Of a stretch of 64,000 nt of DNA, positions 40,478-47,263 are shown piece after piece. Where the stretch lies: NCBI RefSeq assembly GCF_023573145.1, contig NZ_CP097635.1, positions 124,001-188,000 of the forward strand. The letters are read 5' to 3'. Each line of letters begins with the position of its first letter. Position 1 is the stretch's first letter. Both the position numbers and the translations under genes were made by a program. The DNA comes from Aquincola tertiaricarbonis (GTDB lineage Bacteria; Pseudomonadota; Gammaproteobacteria; Burkholderiales; Burkholderiaceae_C). The notes under the pieces were generated by a model. It was not told the DNA's origin and did not search any database. It saw only the letters and a list, made by a program, of their open reading frames with translations.

Positions 40478-40651
40478 GCTGCTCGCCCCGGGACTGGCCC
40501 GTGACTCGATTTATCGGCGGCGTGGACAGGCGGCTTGAGCGGGCGCGGGGGGGCAGATTGGGTGCGTCACCCTTCAGGCTGGCGAAAAAACTGCCGATAC
40601 CAGCGCCACGCCACCAGCGCCTTCCGTGTTGATGTGACCGCCACCACCCCC

Positions 40652-40873
40652 ATGCCTTCCACCGACCCGGCAGACCCCGCCCCCACGCACGCGCCCGATG
40701 ACGGCGCGCCGCCGGTGCGCAGGCCTGCCGCCGAGGTGAGCACCTGCTGGTGGCGCTGCAGCCATTGCGGCACCAACCACACGCTGCGGCTGCCACGCCG
40801 CAACCCGGGCCATTGCCTGAACTGCTGCACCGCGTCGCTGGCGCCGGTGCTCGGGTTCGCCTGGGAACGTTGA
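40652..40873 (+). CDS. Possible small zinc-ribbon protein
   Basis: A 73-residue reading frame with a Pro/Ala-rich first half and a C-terminal zinc-ribbon pattern: CSHCGTNH, then HCLNCC, two CxxC-type knuckles about 16 residues apart. Third codon positions are G/C-rich as in real genes here. No clear ribosome-binding site is seen, and an antisense frame is also open, so the call is tentative. Function unknown. Confidence 0.5.
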   Translation: MPSTDPADPAPTHAPDDGAPPVRRPAAEVSTCWWRCSHCGTNHTLRLPRRNPGHCLNCCTASLAPVLGFAWER

Positions 40874-40918: not shown

Positions 40919-41002
40919 TCAGAGCCAGGCCCAGAGCCAGCGCAGCCAGGCCGGCCGGCGATCGACGGTGGGACGATAGTGCTGACGCAGGGACGGATAC
41001 AT
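40919..41002 (-). CDS. SOS-controlled Trp-rich micro-peptide (candidate)
   Basis: A 27-codon ORF with a strong ribosome-binding site (AAGGAGG five to six nt before ATG). The peptide starts MYPSLRQHYRPTV and ends RPAWLRWLWAWL: a basic N-terminal part and a Trp/Leu-rich C terminus that could insert in or lie on a membrane. A near-perfect LexA box overlaps its predicted promoter (separate entry). This resembles SOS-induced small peptides such as TisB in size and control, but no sequence similarity is claimed. I do not recognise a family. Alternative: the real product is a regulatory RNA or a longer transcript running to the c-di-GMP genes. Confidence 0.55.
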   Translation of the reverse strand: MYPSLRQHYRPTVDRRPAWLRWLWAWL

Positions 41003-41004
41003 GA

Positions 41005-41024
41005 AAGCCTCCTTGTGGAGGCTT
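41005..41024 (-). promoter_or_regulatory. Inverted repeat enclosing the micro-ORF ribosome-binding site
   Basis: AAGCCTCC and GGAGGCTT are perfect 8-nt arms around ACAA on the minus strand, ending two nt before the ATG. The right arm contains the Shine-Dalgarno, so if transcription starts upstream of the left arm, translation would be masked. If transcription starts at the position predicted from the -10, most of the left arm is missing and the dyad would act at DNA level or not at all. Confidence 0.6.
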
Positions 41025-41025
41025 G

Positions 41026-41054
41026 ACTGTATGTTCATACAGTAGTTGTGGCAA
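41026..41054 (-). promoter_or_regulatory. LexA (SOS) box overlapping a core promoter
   Basis: ACTGTATGAACATACAGT (minus strand, 41043-41026) is an 18-nt dyad with 8-nt perfect arms, fitting the CTGT-N8-ACAG LexA consensus of beta- and gammaproteobacteria exactly. It sits inside a promoter: -35 TTGCCA (41054-41049), 17-nt spacer, -10 TACAGT (41031-41026), reading toward the micro-ORF at 41002. No other gene start is near on either strand. Confidence 0.75.
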
Positions 41055-41084: not shown

Positions 41085-42884
41085 TCAGAACGTGGACCAG
41101 TCGTCGTCGTTGGCCACCGCCGCGGCAGGCGCCGGGGCTGGGGCAGGCGCAGCGGCCTTGGCGGCTGCAGGCGCGCGCGCCGGAGCCGGTGCCACGGCAG
41201 CCGGTCGTGCCGCCTTGGCGCTGGTCGCCGCCGGCTTGCGTGCCGCGGCCACCGGGCGCGCCACACGGGCCATCGGTGCAGCAGCGGGCGCCGGGGCCGG
41301 CATGGCCGCTGCCGGGCGCGCGGCCACGGCCGGCGTCGCGGCGCCACCCGCCAGCTTGAACACCGCCACCGCCTGCACCAGCTGCTGGGCCTGCATCTTC
41401 AGGCTTTCGGCGGCGGCGGCCGACTCTTCCACCAGCGCGGCGTTCTGCTGCGTGGCCTGGTCCATCGCCGTCACCGCTTCACCCACCTGGGCCACGCCCG
41501 AAGCCTGCTCGCGCGAGGCCGAGCTGATCTCGCCGACGATGTCGGTGACACGGCGGATGGAGGTGACCACCTGCTCGATCGTGGCACCGGCCTGGTCCAC
41601 CTGGCGGGTGCCCTGCTCCACACGCTCCACGCTCTGGGCGATCAGCGTCTTGATTTCCTTGGCCGCCTCGGCGCTGCGCTGCGCCAGCGTGCGCACTTCA
41701 CCGGCCACCACCGCAAAGCCGCGGCCCTGCTCGCCGGCGCGCGCGGCTTCCACCGCGGCATTCAGCGCCAGGATGTTGGTCTGGAAGGCGATGCCGTCGA
41801 TGGTGCCGATGATCTCGGTGATGCGGTGCGAGCTTTCGCTGATGCCCTTCATGGTCTGCACCACCTGGTGCACCGCTTCGCCGCCCTGGGTGGCCACGTC
41901 GCTGGCGGCCTGGGCCAGCTGGTTGGCCTGCTGGGCGTTGTCGGAGTTGGTGCGCACGGTGGCGCCCAGTTGCTCCATCGAGGCGGCCGTCTCTTCCAGC
42001 GCCGAGGCCTGATGCTCGGTGCGGGCCGACAGGTCGCTGTTGCCCGAGGAGATCTCGGCCGATGCGGTGGCCACACCCTCGGCATTGGCGCGCACCTCGC
42101 CCACGATGTCGGCCAGGCGGGTCTGCATGTCCTTCAGGGCCGACAGCAGCTGCGCCGTCTCGGTGTTGCCGCTGGCGTCGAACTGCTTGCTCAGGTCGCC
42201 GGCGGCCACGCTGCGGGCCACGTCCACGGCCTGGTTCAGCGGGCGCAGCGTCGTGCGGATGATCCAGGCCGCGGTGGCGGCGGCCAGCAGCAGGCCGGCC
42301 ACGATCGCCAGGCCGACCGTCCAACGGGTGGTGGTGGCATGCGCCTCGGCCTGCTGGCTGGCGTCGTCCATCAGGCGGCCGCCCAGTTCCACCAGTTCGG
42401 TGACGGCGGTCATGTAGTCCTGCTGGCGCGGCACCACTTCAGCCACCAGCAGCTGCCGGGCTTCGTCGCGCTTGCCTGCCATCAGCAGCTCGATCAGCTT
42501 GTCGCGCGGGCCGCGGTAGGCCATGCGCGCGGCATTGAGCTTCGCGAAACCGGCCTTGCCCTTGGGCGTGGTCATCGAGGTTTCGAGCACCTTGAACTCG
42601 GCCGAGGTGCGCTTGCTGATCTCGTCGATCTCGGCCTTGAGCGCCTGCAGCTGCGCCGGCTCCGTCAGGATGAACATGTCGCGCAGGGCGCGCGACACCG
42701 TGGCATTGCCATCCCGGATGGTCAGGAAGCGCTTGATCTTGGGATACCGGTCGTCCAGCGCCAGGGTGAATTGATCGTTGATCGCCTGCACACGCTGCAA
42801 GGCGATGACGCCCAGGGCCGCAATGACCAGGGCCATGGCGGCAAAGCCCAGGATCAGGCGGGTGGAGATTTTCAGTTGCTTCAT
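41085..42884 (-). CDS. Methyl-accepting chemotaxis protein
   Basis: A 599-residue transmembrane chemoreceptor. TM1 is at about 10-31, a four-helix-bundle periplasmic sensor at about 32-187 ([22 protein letters not shown]), and TM2 at about 188-210. HAMP follows, then the signalling domain with tip [36 protein letters not shown]. The last about 90 residues are an Ala/Pro-rich linker ending DDDWSTF, resembling the NWETF-type pentapeptide that tethers CheR and CheB. Ligand unknown. Monocistronic. Confidence 0.93.
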
Positions 42885-42969: not shown

Positions 42970-45474
42970 TCACGCCGCCGCTGCTGCCTGCTCGGAAACC
43001 CATGCCGCGCCGCCCTCCGCCACCCGGTAGCGCCACACGCCGCCGTCATCGCCCAGGCGGAACAGGTGCAGCCAGCCGTGGTGCACCAGCTGCCGCACCA
43101 CCTCGTGGCCGGTGATCACCGACTCGATGGCTGCGGCCGGCGCCTGCACGAACACGCTGAGCCGCAGCGGCACATGGCGCCAGCCCTCGCCATCGTGCAC
43201 CGACTGCAGCGGCAGCCCGATGCGCAAGTCGCCGCCATTGCCCTCGAACACGCCCAGGTGGCCGCCCACCACGTTGTGCAGCAGCTTGTCGCCGCTGCCG
43301 TAGCGCTGGGGGTCGACGGTGGAGGCGTGGTACTGCGCATTGATCCACTGCGTGACCACCATCGGCGCGGTGAGGATCAGCGTGAGCACACGCCAGCCCT
43401 CGTCCTGCCGCCAGTCGTAGTCGTGCAGGAAGGCGCGGCCGCCCAGGTCCAGCCCGCGGGTGCGCTGGCGCGGCGCCACGATGAAGGCGGCGCAGCCGGC
43501 CAGGCCCCATTCGGGCCGCAGCTGCGCCCAGTCCTGGCTGCGCGACTGCAGTGCCTGCCGCAGTGCGGGCGCATCGCCCGCCAGGTGGCCCAGTCCCAGG
43601 CCGGGCGCGCGCTCGGCCCGGGCGCGGTCGCCGGCCTCGGCCAGCCAGGCCTGCAGCTGCGCCCGGTCGGGCGCATGGCTGGCGGGCAGCAGGTCGAGGT
43701 CGAACAGCCGGCACTCGTCGGTGGTGGTGTCGTGCAGGCCGGCCACGAACCAGGTGGTGGCCGGCAGCGCGATGCCTTGGGCCTGCAGGCCCTGGCGCAC
43801 CGCGGGGTCGTTGAGCAGGCCGGCCAGCAACCGGGCATTGACCTCGCCGGTCTGGCCGCCGCAGGCACCGCAGTCCAGGCCGGCCGCATGCGGGTTGTTC
43901 TGGCTGCTGCTGCCATGGCCAGCCAGCAGCACCAGCCGCGCCAGACCCTGCTTCAGGCCCATCGCGGTCAGCGCCTGGGCAGCGGCCTGCACCCGGGCGG
44001 GCAGGTCGCTGCCATCGGGCGCGGCCGGCCAGCGCGGGCGCAGGCGGGCCGCAGCATCGGCGGGCAGGCCGGCCTGCTCCACCGGCTGCGCCCGCCCGCC
44101 GCGGCCCAGGCCGCGCTGCAGCAGCGGCGCGGCCAGCGCCAGCCCGCACGACTCCACGAACGAGAAGCCCGAGCCTGCGCTGCCCTTGAAGGCCTGCCAG
44201 GCCTGGCTCCAGCGCAGGCGCTGGCGGCGGCGCCGGGCCAGCCACTGGCCCAGGCCCGGCTCGTCGCTGTCTTCGGTGGCGCACAACGCGGGCGCCAGCA
44301 GGCCGGGCAGCTGCGGGCGCTGCAGCTCGGTGCCCAGCGCCTGCCAGGCCACCGGCATCGCGAAGAAGCCGGCGAAGCCGCGGGTGTGCACCTGCGGGCC
44401 GGCCGCTTCCAGCGCGCGGCGGAACACCTCGGACCGCACGTCGATGCAGAACACGGCCTGCACCGCCGGGGCGGTCTCGGGCTGCGTGCCACCATGGGCC
44501 AGCGCCTCGCACAGCGGCGCCTGGTAGCTGCGCTCAAGCGCGTCCTGCCACAACCAGTCGGCGCGGGCTGCGCGGCGTGCCCCTGCCACCGCCTGCGCCT
44601 GGCGCTGCCAGCCGGCGGCCAGCCGGCTGGCCAGGTCGTGCGCAGCATGCCCCTGGTGCAGCAGCCATTCCCAGGCCAGGCGCACCGCCAGCAGCTGCAC
44701 CAGGTGGTCGTCGTCCTGCTGCTGCAGCCGCGCCTGCCAGCGCAGGTAGGCGCACCACGCCGCCCAGCCATTGATGCTGAGCAGCAGCGCGCCCAGGTAG
44801 GCCTCCTGCGCCTGAGCGGGCACCCGCAGCGCCTGCAGCGCCTGGGCGATGAGCGCCTGCGGCTCGCGCGGCAGCTGGGCCACGCGGCGGCTGAAGCCAC
44901 GGAACCCCATCAGCATGCCGGGGCCCAGGTCATGGGCCGACTGGCGCAGCCAGCAGGCATACAGGCCCCCGCTGCGGTCCGGGCCCCAGGCCGCCTGGGC
45001 ATCGTCGAAATAGGCGGCGCAGCACTGGCTGATGTGGTGGGTGACCGCATCGCGCCAGGCCACTGCATGGCGCAGGTCGCGGCCGGCGTCCAGCAGGTCG
45101 GTGACCAGCGGCAGCCGGGCCGGCGGTGGCGGGTCGGCCTGGCAGCGGCCCAGCAGGCTGGCCACCGTTTCATGGGAACCAGCGGCGTCGATGGCGGCCT
45201 GCAGGTCCGGCGCGCCCAGCGTGCCGGCCTTCCAGTGGCGCAGGAACTCGGCACGCGGCATCAGCAGCGGGCTGCCGGCCTGCACCGCCAGCTGGGCGGC
45301 GGCCTCCTCGATGGGCCGGTCGCGGTGGCCCCACCAGGGATTGACCGCGATGAAACGGTCCAGCGGCCAGGTGGGCGCGATGCGGTCGCAGGCGGCGCGG
45401 ATGGCCTGCCGCAGTACCTCGTGGTCAAGCGTCTCGTCGCGGGTGTCGGTCGGCGGGTCCAGCATCAGGCTCAT
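42970..45474 (-). CDS. dabA: DabA, inorganic carbon accumulation (DUF2309) subunit
   Basis: An 834-residue protein of the DUF2309/UPF0753 family. It is a beta-carbonic-anhydrase-like subunit that, with the membrane partner DabB, hydrates CO2 vectorially to bicarbonate using an ion gradient. Zinc and active-site residues are visible: Cys and Asp in FCIDVRSEV (about 341-343), His in LLAGHGSSSQNNPH (about 520) and Cys in GLDCGACGG (about 535). The start MLDPPTDTRDETLDHEVL and WPLDRFIAVNPWWG are typical. It lies 15 nt after dabB, so the two form an operon. In heterotrophs this system supports growth at ambient CO2; in autotrophs it feeds RuBisCO. Confidence 0.93.
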   Translation of the reverse strand: MSLMLDPPTDTRDETLDHEVLRQAIRAACDRIAPTWPLDRFIAVNPWWGHRDRPIEEAAAQLAVQAGSPLLMPRAEFLRHWKAGTLGAPDLQAAIDAAGSHETVASLLGRCQADPPPPARLPLVTDLLDAGRDLRHAVAWRDAVTHHISQCCAAYFDDAQAAWGPDRSGGLYACWLRQSAHDLGPGMLMGFRGFSRRVAQLPREPQALIAQALQALRVPAQAQEAYLGALLLSINGWAAWCAYLRWQARLQQQDDDHLVQLLAVRLAWEWLLHQGHAAHDLASRLAAGWQRQAQAVAGARRAARADWLWQDALERSYQAPLCEALAHGGTQPETAPAVQAVFCIDVRSEVFRRALEAAGPQVHTRGFAGFFAMPVAWQALGTELQRPQLPGLLAPALCATEDSDEPGLGQWLARRRRQRLRWSQAWQAFKGSAGSGFSFVESCGLALAAPLLQRGLGRGGRAQPVEQAGLPADAAARLRPRWPAAPDGSDLPARVQAAAQALTAMGLKQGLARLVLLAGHGSSSQNNPHAAGLDCGACGGQTGEVNARLLAGLLNDPAVRQGLQAQGIALPATTWFVAGLHDTTTDECRLFDLDLLPASHAPDRAQLQAWLAEAGDRARAERAPGLGLGHLAGDAPALRQALQSRSQDWAQLRPEWGLAGCAAFIVAPRQRTRGLDLGGRAFLHDYDWRQDEGWRVLTLILTAPMVVTQWINAQYHASTVDPQRYGSGDKLLHNVVGGHLGVFEGNGGDLRIGLPLQSVHDGEGWRHVPLRLSVFVQAPAAAIESVITGHEVVRQLVHHGWLHLFRLGDDGGVWRYRVAEGGAAWVSEQAAAAA

Positions 45475-45489
45475 GGCGGTGCTCCGGCT

Positions 45490-47157
45490 TCAGGTGGATT
45501 GCTGGGGCCGCACGTCGGCGTGCGGACGCGGCACGGGCAGGGTCGGCGGCGGCGGCAGGCGGGCCGGCCACAGGCGGAAGGTGAGGCGGGTGAACCACTC
45601 GTCCAGGTACAGCCCGCCGAACATCACCGGATACAAGCGGCGAGCCAACGCGCTGTGCGGCGCGGCCAGCACCACCGCCTGCAGGATGAAGAGGAGCGCG
45701 AAGCAGCCCACCACCCAGGCCACTAGCCCCGCCTGCAGCCACGCAGGCGCCGCGTGGCCGTGCAGGCTGACCGGGTGCGCGGCGGCCCAGGCACCTTCCA
45801 CCAGCGCATGCAGCCCCAGGTACAGACCGGCCACGCCAGCCGCCACCAGCAGGCCGCGCAGCGCAGCGCGCCCGCTGTGCGCCCGCACCATCAGCGGTGC
45901 CAGCGCCAGCCCCAGGATCACCGTCGCGGCCAGCAGCGGGCCCTGCGGCACCGCGCCCAGGCCCCAGGCCGCGGCGGCCAGGGCCGCCAGCCCCAGGCCG
46001 GCCACCGCGGCACCGGCCCAGGCCAGCGCACCAGGCCGCGGCGCGGGCGGCATCAACTGCCGCAGCCGGGCCTGCTGCACCGCACCCCCAGCCGACAGGA
46101 AGGCATGCGCCTTGTACAGCGAGTGGGCCACCAGGTGCAGCAGCGCCAGCGCATGCAGGCCCAGGCCGCACTGCATCAGCATGAAGCCCATCTGCGCGCA
46201 GGTGGACCAGGCCAGCGACACCTTGATGCTGATGCGCGTCATCATCACCAGCGCCGCCACCACCGCGGTGGCGCTGCCCGCCACCACCAGCAGCGCCTGC
46301 GCAGCCGGCACCTCGGCCACCAGGCCGCCCACCCGCAGCAGCAGAAAGCCGCCCAGGTTGACCACGCCCGCATGCAGCAGGGCCGAGACCGGCGTGGGCG
46401 CCTCCATCACCTGGATGAGCCAGCCGTGCACCGGCAGCTGCGCGCACTTGAGCAAGGCGCTGGCGGCCAGCAACAAGGCCGCGGCCTGCAGATGGCCGTC
46501 AGGGCCCGGGCGCTGCGCCAACGCGGCCAGCGCCGCGTCGATGTCCAGCGTGCCCAGCCGCAGGCCCAGCAGCGCCACGCCGCCCAGCAGGCAGAGGTCG
46601 CCCACGCGGCTGGCGATGAACTTCTTGTGCGCGGCGATCAGCGCCGCCGGCCGCTGGCGGAAGAAGGTGAGCAGCCCATGCAGCTGCAGGCTGGTGGCCA
46701 CCCAGGCCACGGCCAGCACCGCGAGGTTGTTGGTGCCCACCAGCAGCGCCACTGCGGCCAGGGTGCCTATCAGCCCACGCACGTAGCGCGGCTGGCCGTC
46801 CGCCCCTTGCAGGTAGGTGCGCGAGTAGCCGGTGATCACCCAGCCGATGAAGCACACCAGCAGCATCACCACGCCGCCCAGCAGGTCGCTGCGCAGGCCG
46901 GGGCGCACCGCGCCGGCTTCGCCCAGCACCACCAGCACCGGGCCATGCCAGATGCCGGCGCCACCGCTGACCAGCCCCACCAGCGACAGCAGCGCCGCCA
47001 GCAGCGCCAGGCCGATGGCCACACGCGCCAGGCGCCACAGCATGTCGACCTGACGGTGGAACAGCGACGCTGCCAGTGCCGCCAGGCCCAGCATCAAGGG
47101 AGGCAGGGCCAGCAAGGCCGCGCGCCAGGGCGCAAGTTCGGGCAGCAAGGTTTCCAT
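45490..47157 (-). CDS. dabB: DabB, NuoL/MrpA-like membrane subunit
   Basis: A 555-residue polytopic protein of the proton-translocating NADH-quinone oxidoreductase subunit L family. Key stretch: KCAQLPVHGWLIQVMEAPTPVSALLHAGVVNLGGFLLLR, with conserved Lys/His, and LVAHSLYKAHAFLSAG. It lacks the other Nuo subunits and sits directly before dabA, which identifies it as the cation-conducting partner. The start is uncertain: an ATG six codons upstream (47175) is also possible; neither has a strong Shine-Dalgarno. It is divergent from a LysR regulator. Confidence 0.92.
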   Translation of the reverse strand: METLLPELAPWRAALLALPPLMLGLAALAASLFHRQVDMLWRLARVAIGLALLAALLSLVGLVSGGAGIWHGPVLVVLGEAGAVRPGLRSDLLGGVVMLLVCFIGWVITGYSRTYLQGADGQPRYVRGLIGTLAAVALLVGTNNLAVLAVAWVATSLQLHGLLTFFRQRPAALIAAHKKFIASRVGDLCLLGGVALLGLRLGTLDIDAALAALAQRPGPDGHLQAAALLLAASALLKCAQLPVHGWLIQVMEAPTPVSALLHAGVVNLGGFLLLRVGGLVAEVPAAQALLVVAGSATAVVAALVMMTRISIKVSLAWSTCAQMGFMLMQCGLGLHALALLHLVAHSLYKAHAFLSAGGAVQQARLRQLMPPAPRPGALAWAGAAVAGLGLAALAAAAWGLGAVPQGPLLAATVILGLALAPLMVRAHSGRAALRGLLVAAGVAGLYLGLHALVEGAWAAAHPVSLHGHAAPAWLQAGLVAWVVGCFALLFILQAVVLAAPHSALARRLYPVMFGGLYLDEWFTRLTFRLWPARLPPPPTLPVPRPHADVRPQQST

Positions 47158-47263
47158 GGCGCGGCATCCATCCAATCACTGGCCGCCACTGTGCCCGCCG
47201 GCGTCACTTCCGTAAAATTCATTGTTGCTGACGAAACGTTCCACGAAAGCGAAGGATGCAGGC

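Follow-up and report, generated by a model that had tools for sequence, protein, structure and literature searches.

Locus and genomic setting

The window analysed here is a stretch of 64,000 nucleotides of the genome of Aquincola tertiaricarbonis (Burkholderiales), in which a first-pass annotation had described an exact LexA box fused to a promoter (TTGCCA, 17 nt, TACAGT) that reads through a Shine-Dalgarno sequence into a 27-codon ORF. On re-reading the sequence, every one of these elements was found exactly where it had been placed (Table 1). The encoded peptide carries four Trp among its last nine residues. The LexA box lies within a perfect 8+2+8 dyad of 18 nt (ACTGTATGTTCATACAGT, 41026-41043), which reads ACTGTATG-AA-CATACAGT on the minus strand (41043-41026) and is the sole A+T-rich one among the seven perfect 8+2+8 dyads in the window.

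Table 1. Features of the micropeptide locus (positions are those of the window)
Feature	Position	Strand	Basis
Micropeptide ORF, 27 codons, MYPSLRQHYRPTVDRRPAWLRWLWAWL	40919..41002 (stop codon included)	-	Sequence; 76 loci; purifying codon selection
Shine-Dalgarno AGGAGG, 5 nt 5' of ATG (41002)	41008..41013	-	Sequence; SD-like stretch in most relatives
8-bp hairpin AAGCCTCC-ACAA-GGAGGCTT, overlaps Shine-Dalgarno	41005..41024	-	Sequence; here and at few other loci only
-10 element TACAGT, within 3' half of LexA box	41026..41031	-	Sequence; promoter geometry in relatives
LexA box CTGT-N8-ACAG	41027..41042	.	Pattern search; kept in relatives
-35 element TTGCCA, 17 nt from -10	41049..41054	-	Promoter geometry in relatives
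Chemotaxis receptor gene (Pfam MCPsignal); the micro-ORF lies between its end and the 112-aa ORF	41085-42884	-	Pfam
112-aa ORF, convergent with the micro-ORF, without family	40535-40873	+	Domain search

The two flanking genes had no match at the other loci of the peptide or of its partner gene (described below), except for one receptor-like gene, 57% identical, at a partner locus (L163). An Rfam scan of the window returned no family at gathering score, and the window holds no tRNA. A gene for DabA (PF10070) and an adjoining gene for a proton-antiporter-type subunit (42970-47175, minus strand) together encode a predicted inorganic-carbon pump.

Taken as a bare pattern, the LexA box is not beyond chance. 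CTGT-N8-ACAG was found once in the window with 0.61 occurrences expected of this 8-base pattern, and at least once in 45 of 100 shuffles; the whole genome holds 18 such sites against 16 of a reversed control pattern, which is no enrichment. These counts would suit a chance ORF standing behind a chance LexA-like palindrome. The box nevertheless exceeds chance because it is conserved: at 67 of 76 loci that were found through the peptide, a copy with no more than one mismatch lies 100 nt or less from the start. With 76 loci that keep the reading frame, mostly boxed and many with the same promoter geometry, a chance origin is scarcely credible.

The window gene has its operator overlapping the promoter, as expected of a member of the LexA regulon, and the same operator stands at known SOS genes of this genome. 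In six other box regions of the genome that we examined, a likely SOS gene begins at the box in three cases, namely imuA (NF033429), a DNA-modification/repair radical-SAM gene (TIGR03916) and a gene for a 374-aa radical-SAM protein named by eye; no obvious SOS gene was seen in the remaining three.

Relatives, operator and coding evidence

Relatives were gathered by peptide sequence alone, and the box played no part in their selection. A search with the single peptide against 399 genomes of the same family matched 46 genomes at E <= 0.05, and a profile of 29 members (A1) matched 67 of the 399 at E <= 0.01, of which 64 were retained after inspection. Inspection covered every A1 row with E <= 6.4e-4 and one weaker row; two rows with E above 0.006 lay outside it, as did the weak rows of the single-peptide search that the profile did not repeat. 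Matches in G027, G050 and G142 (loci L110, L112 and L120) were dropped because there was no such ORF, and L182 was dropped too. The resulting 76 loci include the window's own and some that are closely related, with eight named loci left out of the counts because their contigs are as long as those of unnamed loci. A broader profile (A4) matched four of 74 other sample genomes, one match being spurious and three real (G054, G305 and G317, with four loci, all of them preceded by a LexA box of at most one mismatch); these four loci came later and stand outside all 76-locus counts. The carrier count of 64 + 3 genomes is a lower bound.

Named carriers include Rubrivivax, Rhizobacter, Ideonella, Aquabacterium, Azohydromonas and Piscinibacter (17 loci), and the other genome of the same genus in the sample (G001) has a diverged copy of the peptide (L081) with its own exact box. 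Given that most genomes of the family do without the peptide, it must be dispensable. Nothing convincing was found outside the family among 300 order-level and 185 class-level genomes: of three matches in the order sample, two belong to the family itself and the third, a short one in G504, is by eye another protein; the class sample gave the genome itself and one spurious match. The locus in G504, a genome from another family of the order, holds a small ORF at bases 77-187 (L168) with an RQHYxP-type start like that of the peptide and a hydrophobic tail, and no LexA box was seen by eye in the 76 available bases 5' of it; this ORF is possibly a phage protein or a chance match. A mobile or phage origin of the peptide was considered and rejected, as searches with a sensitivity for close relatives found none in IMG/VR, plasmids or phage records and none of a second subtype in plasmids. 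At the same sensitivity, the partner had no relatives in IMG/VR or plasmids.

The first-pass annotation had proposed two comparisons, one for the same box and frame in related genomes and one of synonymous with non-synonymous changes, and both favoured a LexA-controlled, translated gene. Within 100 nt upstream of the start, an exact CTGT-N8-ACAG box was found at 56 of the 76 loci, in addition to those with a single mismatch that bring the count to the 67 given above, while 12,036 random stretches of the same loci contained an exact box in 0.12% and a box with at most one mismatch in 1.5% of cases. The other nine loci comprise seven in which the ORF lies directly behind the partner gene and two (L099 and L119) whose exact box lies farther upstream, at 176 and 164 nt. 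At 39 of the 67 boxed loci the spacing between a TTG and the -10 element of the box is exactly 17 nt, and at three it is 18 nt; other spacings reached 2.3%. Across relatives, the promoter, which is of the sigma-70 type, is built into the operator, the box itself supplying the -10 element.

Several loci carry more than one box. Under a looser criterion of up to two mismatches, the distance between successive boxes was 18 nt in 21 of 28 pairs, and such tandem arrangements precede the micro-ORFs of L033, L043-L046, L049, L051 and others. The -35 element (TTGC.. or TTGT..) then comes from the upstream box, with the -10 element (TACAGT) in the downstream one, so judging by the arrangement LexA bound to tandem boxes could cover both.

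The reading frame itself is under selection. Over 20 disjoint pairs, pN/pS was 0.24, indicating purifying selection, with the choice of pairs at >=70% amino-acid identity favouring a low value. In 21 pairs picked by nucleotide identity of the ORF, changes at codon positions 1, 2 and 3 numbered 71, 47 and 138, and nucleotide identity was 85% within the ORF (high by choice), compared with 58% for the preceding 20 nt and 41% beyond the stop codon. Synonymous changes thus outnumber non-synonymous ones, as in translated genes. The relatives are 25-40 residues long, with exactly 27 in 35 of 76, and their chain nearly always ends in W-x-W-(L/F/C). R6, Y9, P11, P17, W19, W24 and W26 are invariant in an alignment of 29 rows; in one of 47 rows R6, P17 and W19 remain invariant and Y9, P11, W24 and W26 are kept at >=90%. 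Two parts are conserved, an N-terminal (L/F/Y)RQxYRP and a C-terminal amphipathic PxWLRRxWxW(L/F) at the chain end.

These results bear on a further reading, that of a LexA-controlled regulatory RNA, as raised in the first-pass annotation, or of a leader peptide, in which the ORF is incidental or only the act of its translation matters. The window does have a perfect 8-bp hairpin over the Shine-Dalgarno sequence, with an ACAA loop, and similar hairpins occur in a few relatives (L043, L046 and L049). Yet it is the amino-acid sequence that is conserved, with changes piling up at third codon positions. Sequestration of the Shine-Dalgarno sequence as a family-wide switch was also rejected, since its mean accessibility across 62 leaders was 0.39 compared to 0.33 in shuffles. 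There is furthermore no widely common downstream gene other than the partner (14 loci), and the window is without an Rfam match. A regulatory RNA or leader peptide is therefore a very improbable explanation, and on sequence grounds an RNA or a chance ORF can be regarded as practically excluded. Were transcription in the window to begin 6-8 nt past the -10 element, part of the hairpin's 5' arm would not be transcribed. The hairpin could be a relic, or it could serve as a terminator in both directions between the convergent genes. Given the relatives, the conserved boxes and the purifying codon evolution, the ORF almost certainly represents a real family of LexA-controlled micropeptides.

A frequent neighbour with a clamp-type motif

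The only widely common neighbour of the peptide across the 76 loci is a gene for a protein of about 70 amino acids, here called the partner. It lies within 1 kb of the peptide at 21 of the 76 loci, always on the same strand, and is missing within this distance at the other 55. With peptide and partner masked, each of the other neighbours was common to at most four loci, some loci being shortened by contig ends. The peptide comes first at 14 loci, with the partner 40-209 nt downstream, and the partner comes first at seven, where it ends 2-72 nt upstream (counted from the end of the profile match) of a peptide ORF that has no box of its own. At four of these seven (L028, L086, L090 and L092) a box with at most one mismatch lies near the start of the partner; at L091 the box is 267 nt away, and L053 and L118 have none.

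Seven loci with an adjacent peptide gene supplied the sequences for the partner profile; of the 21 adjacent cases, five or more (L124, L125, L129, L131 and L137) had no share in it. At E <= 0.001 the profile matched 36 of the 399 family genomes. Of the 64 peptide genomes it matched 22, an odds ratio of 12 with P 7e-11, in a test biased by the origin of the profile from peptide-neighbouring loci and by the separate counting of related genomes. Half of the 30 partner loci that we examined (15) have no adjacent peptide, and 12 of these 15 have a LexA box of at most one mismatch within 140 nt. Among loci L138-L167, most of them with a LexA box and often without the peptide, the partner shows a core of the form YVWxSRFGxMLIEV (e.g., L148, L149, L150, L158 and L167). 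Partner matches with internal stops at L159 and L162 (G252 and G375) are apparently decayed copies.

Intact partners are 62-96 residues long, and three members had no Pfam or NCBIfam family. A match of two of 28 partners to phrog_10360 (best E 0.0034) was judged to be chance. The structure model combines a low-confidence N terminus with a small three-stranded sheet (pLDDT 70 overall). Preceding the sheet is a hexapeptide Q/E-x-x-L-P-L, in forms such as QLDLPL and QASLPL; among 28 members its Q, L, P and L are kept in 20, 27, 21 and 26, respectively, with E in seven and P in one at the Q position. The partner thereby contains a QxxL(x)(F/L) motif of the type found in ligands of the sliding clamp. 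The accessible part of PMC12309361 gives the general clamp-binding consensus as QxxLF and reports a KD of ~280 nM for binding of the Hda motif QLSLPL to E. coli DnaN. The QxxLPL of the partner has the form of this Hda motif; the protein differs from Hda and other clamp ligands in its size of about 70 aa, its low-confidence N terminus and its small beta sheet. An excerpt of PMC9690074 describes SocB as a bacterial toxin that blocks the clamp through such a motif. From this motif, we infer that the partner may bind the sliding clamp.

The window peptide itself has no QxxLPL-type motif by eye, and its genome appears to be without the partner: a larger partner profile found none at E <= 0.1 in this genome and 14 others. 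The peptide thus does not need the partner. Since this genome has no partner at that cut-off and 55 of the 76 loci have none within 1 kb, any link between the peptide and the clamp is indirect.

Candidate functions of the peptide

The chemistry of the peptide limits how it could act. Across the 76 members the mean net charge is about +4.6, and the amphipathic C-terminal ten residues include about three Trp. The best 19-residue Kyte-Doolittle mean averaged -0.51 and reached at most +0.42 in these members; the usual threshold for a transmembrane segment is ~1.6, and no membrane span is thus predicted. For one 35-residue member, AlphaFold2 modelled a single helix at residues 26-34 (block pLDDT 81 and 86, overall 72, pTM 0.25), which points, with moderate confidence, to just a short C-terminal helix. 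The window peptide matched no Pfam family at E <= 1 and nothing in PADLOC, three members gave no worthwhile match in Pfam or NCBIfam, and the peptide profile matched no family in the PDB. Two weak hits were judged to be chance, namely Pfam Mso1 (E 0.061) and phrog_30075 (E 0.011), each for one of three peptides, and among the domain searches a match to a portion of GAPDH in the PDB (E 0.021) was discounted likewise.

The first-pass annotation had likened the peptide to TisB. In E. coli, TisB is an SOS-controlled toxic transmembrane peptide with an antisense RNA, and DinQ is described as toxic too, a peptide with one transmembrane segment and antisense RNAs. The likeness is that of SOS-controlled small peptides without an enzyme domain, and SOS control, size, positive charge, the C-terminal Trp residues and the amphipathic C terminus would all suit a toxin or persistence peptide that acts on membranes as a cationic Trp/Arg-rich surface-active helix. 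In contrast to TisB and DinQ, the window peptide is cationic and has the seven invariant residues of the 29 aligned members, and none of the 76 members offers a 19-residue stretch hydrophobic enough for the membrane. Conservation of the RQxYRP motif is close to that of the Trp part, and a membrane disruptor would not need this motif. Sequestration of the Shine-Dalgarno sequence is a common safety catch of toxins, yet was not enriched in the 62 leaders. A membrane-active toxin is thus improbable and fits less well than a division checkpoint. Of the earlier interpretation, the LexA operator on the promoter and the selected micropeptide stand, while the TisB-type analogy and the regulatory RNA found no support; the pairing with a second SOS gene, seen in other genomes, lay beyond the reach of that annotation.

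The main rival to the reading that we favour is such a checkpoint, in which the peptide restrains division during DNA damage in the place of SulA. As described in the accessible part of PMC4211646, SidA and DidA of Caulobacter are small, damage-induced transmembrane proteins that act on FtsW/I/N, and SidA, with 29 residues and LexA control, shares the size class and the control of the window peptide. Compared by description, the likeness extends to small size and damage induction; unlike SidA and DidA, the peptide has no transmembrane segment, and no hydrophobic stretch was found in any of the 76 members. Nor does the window peptide contain the SulA domain (PF03846).

To follow this question across genomes, we tested a set of 80, composed of 40 of the 64 peptide genomes (our own choice) and 40 random genomes free of both peptide and partner. 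PF03846 matched only three, one of 40 with the peptide and two of 40 without, and this genome was not among them. Two of the matches (G034, C16 and G275, C61) lie inside ImuA genes and the third (G057) has two stops, leaving no intact separate SulA in any of the 80. This absence speaks for a substitute. SulA is equally absent where the peptide is absent, however, so there is no complementary pattern; replacement of SulA by complementarity found no support (1/40 compared to 2/40, with two of the three matches being ImuA genes). The common neighbour, moreover, points to the clamp and not to the divisome. Taken together, we consider a division checkpoint rather unlikely.

ImuA showed a different distribution. 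It was found over cut-off in all 40 peptide genomes and in 24 of the 40 others (P 5e-6); limiting the peptide-free set to genomes of >=3.5 Mb reduced the difference to 40/40 compared to 20/23 (P 0.045), so that genome size explains part of the association. This genome has two ImuA genes over cut-off (G000:C2:1700518-1701060 and C2:3798661-3799194), and G200 and G313 also have more than one.

The boxed partner with its Hda-like QxxLPL motif and the presence of ImuA in 40 of 40 peptide genomes make it a possibility, tentatively held, that the target of the peptide lies in the replication or translesion machinery. The reading that we favour as a whole, a LexA-repressed mini-cistron for a functional micropeptide with its target in the machinery of damaged replication or translesion synthesis, is plausible at somewhat less than even confidence. 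In this scheme, LexA on its box would cover the -10 element and repress the mini-cistron, and DNA damage would remove LexA, upon which the peptide would be made from a short message, as sequence conservation and the known biology of LexA suggest. The peptide would be a soluble or membrane-surface molecule that docks on a protein, and probably not a membrane pore. Contact with a protein of the replication or translesion machinery would be made by its Trp helix and RQxYRP motif. In the presence of the partner, that protein would sit on the sliding clamp; in genomes that lack the partner, this one included, the peptide would have to act alone on a resident target.

Few SOS micropeptides are known, the most familiar being those of E. 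coli and Caulobacter, and ORFs of 27 codons are usually overlooked by gene callers. Within the open PMC library, we found no paper on the peptide, the partner or their sequence strings. For the SOS regulon of Betaproteobacteria, the accessible part of PMC3323433 lists hypA and hypB as hypothetical genes with predicted LexA control, hypB being limited to Burkholderia. Known to us by description and not by sequence, they resemble the peptide and partner in their predicted LexA control in Betaproteobacteria.

More speculatively still, and with a probability that we place somewhat below that of the favoured reading, the peptide and the clamp-motif partner might form an undescribed SOS-induced module of replication control in a lineage where SulA is not recognisable. 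In this module the partner would occupy the clamp and the peptide would add a second, Trp-based contact to a polymerase, the mutasome or a division protein; during damage the module would thereby hold or re-route replication, mutagenesis or division. The frequent neighbour gene gives the peptide named candidate targets, the sliding clamp and the ImuA-ImuB-DnaE2 mutasome. Seven of its positions are invariant among the 29 aligned members, and owing to the LexA operator on the promoter its induction is easily tested. The peptide also bears on the question of which SOS gene, if any, stops division where no intact SulA is seen.
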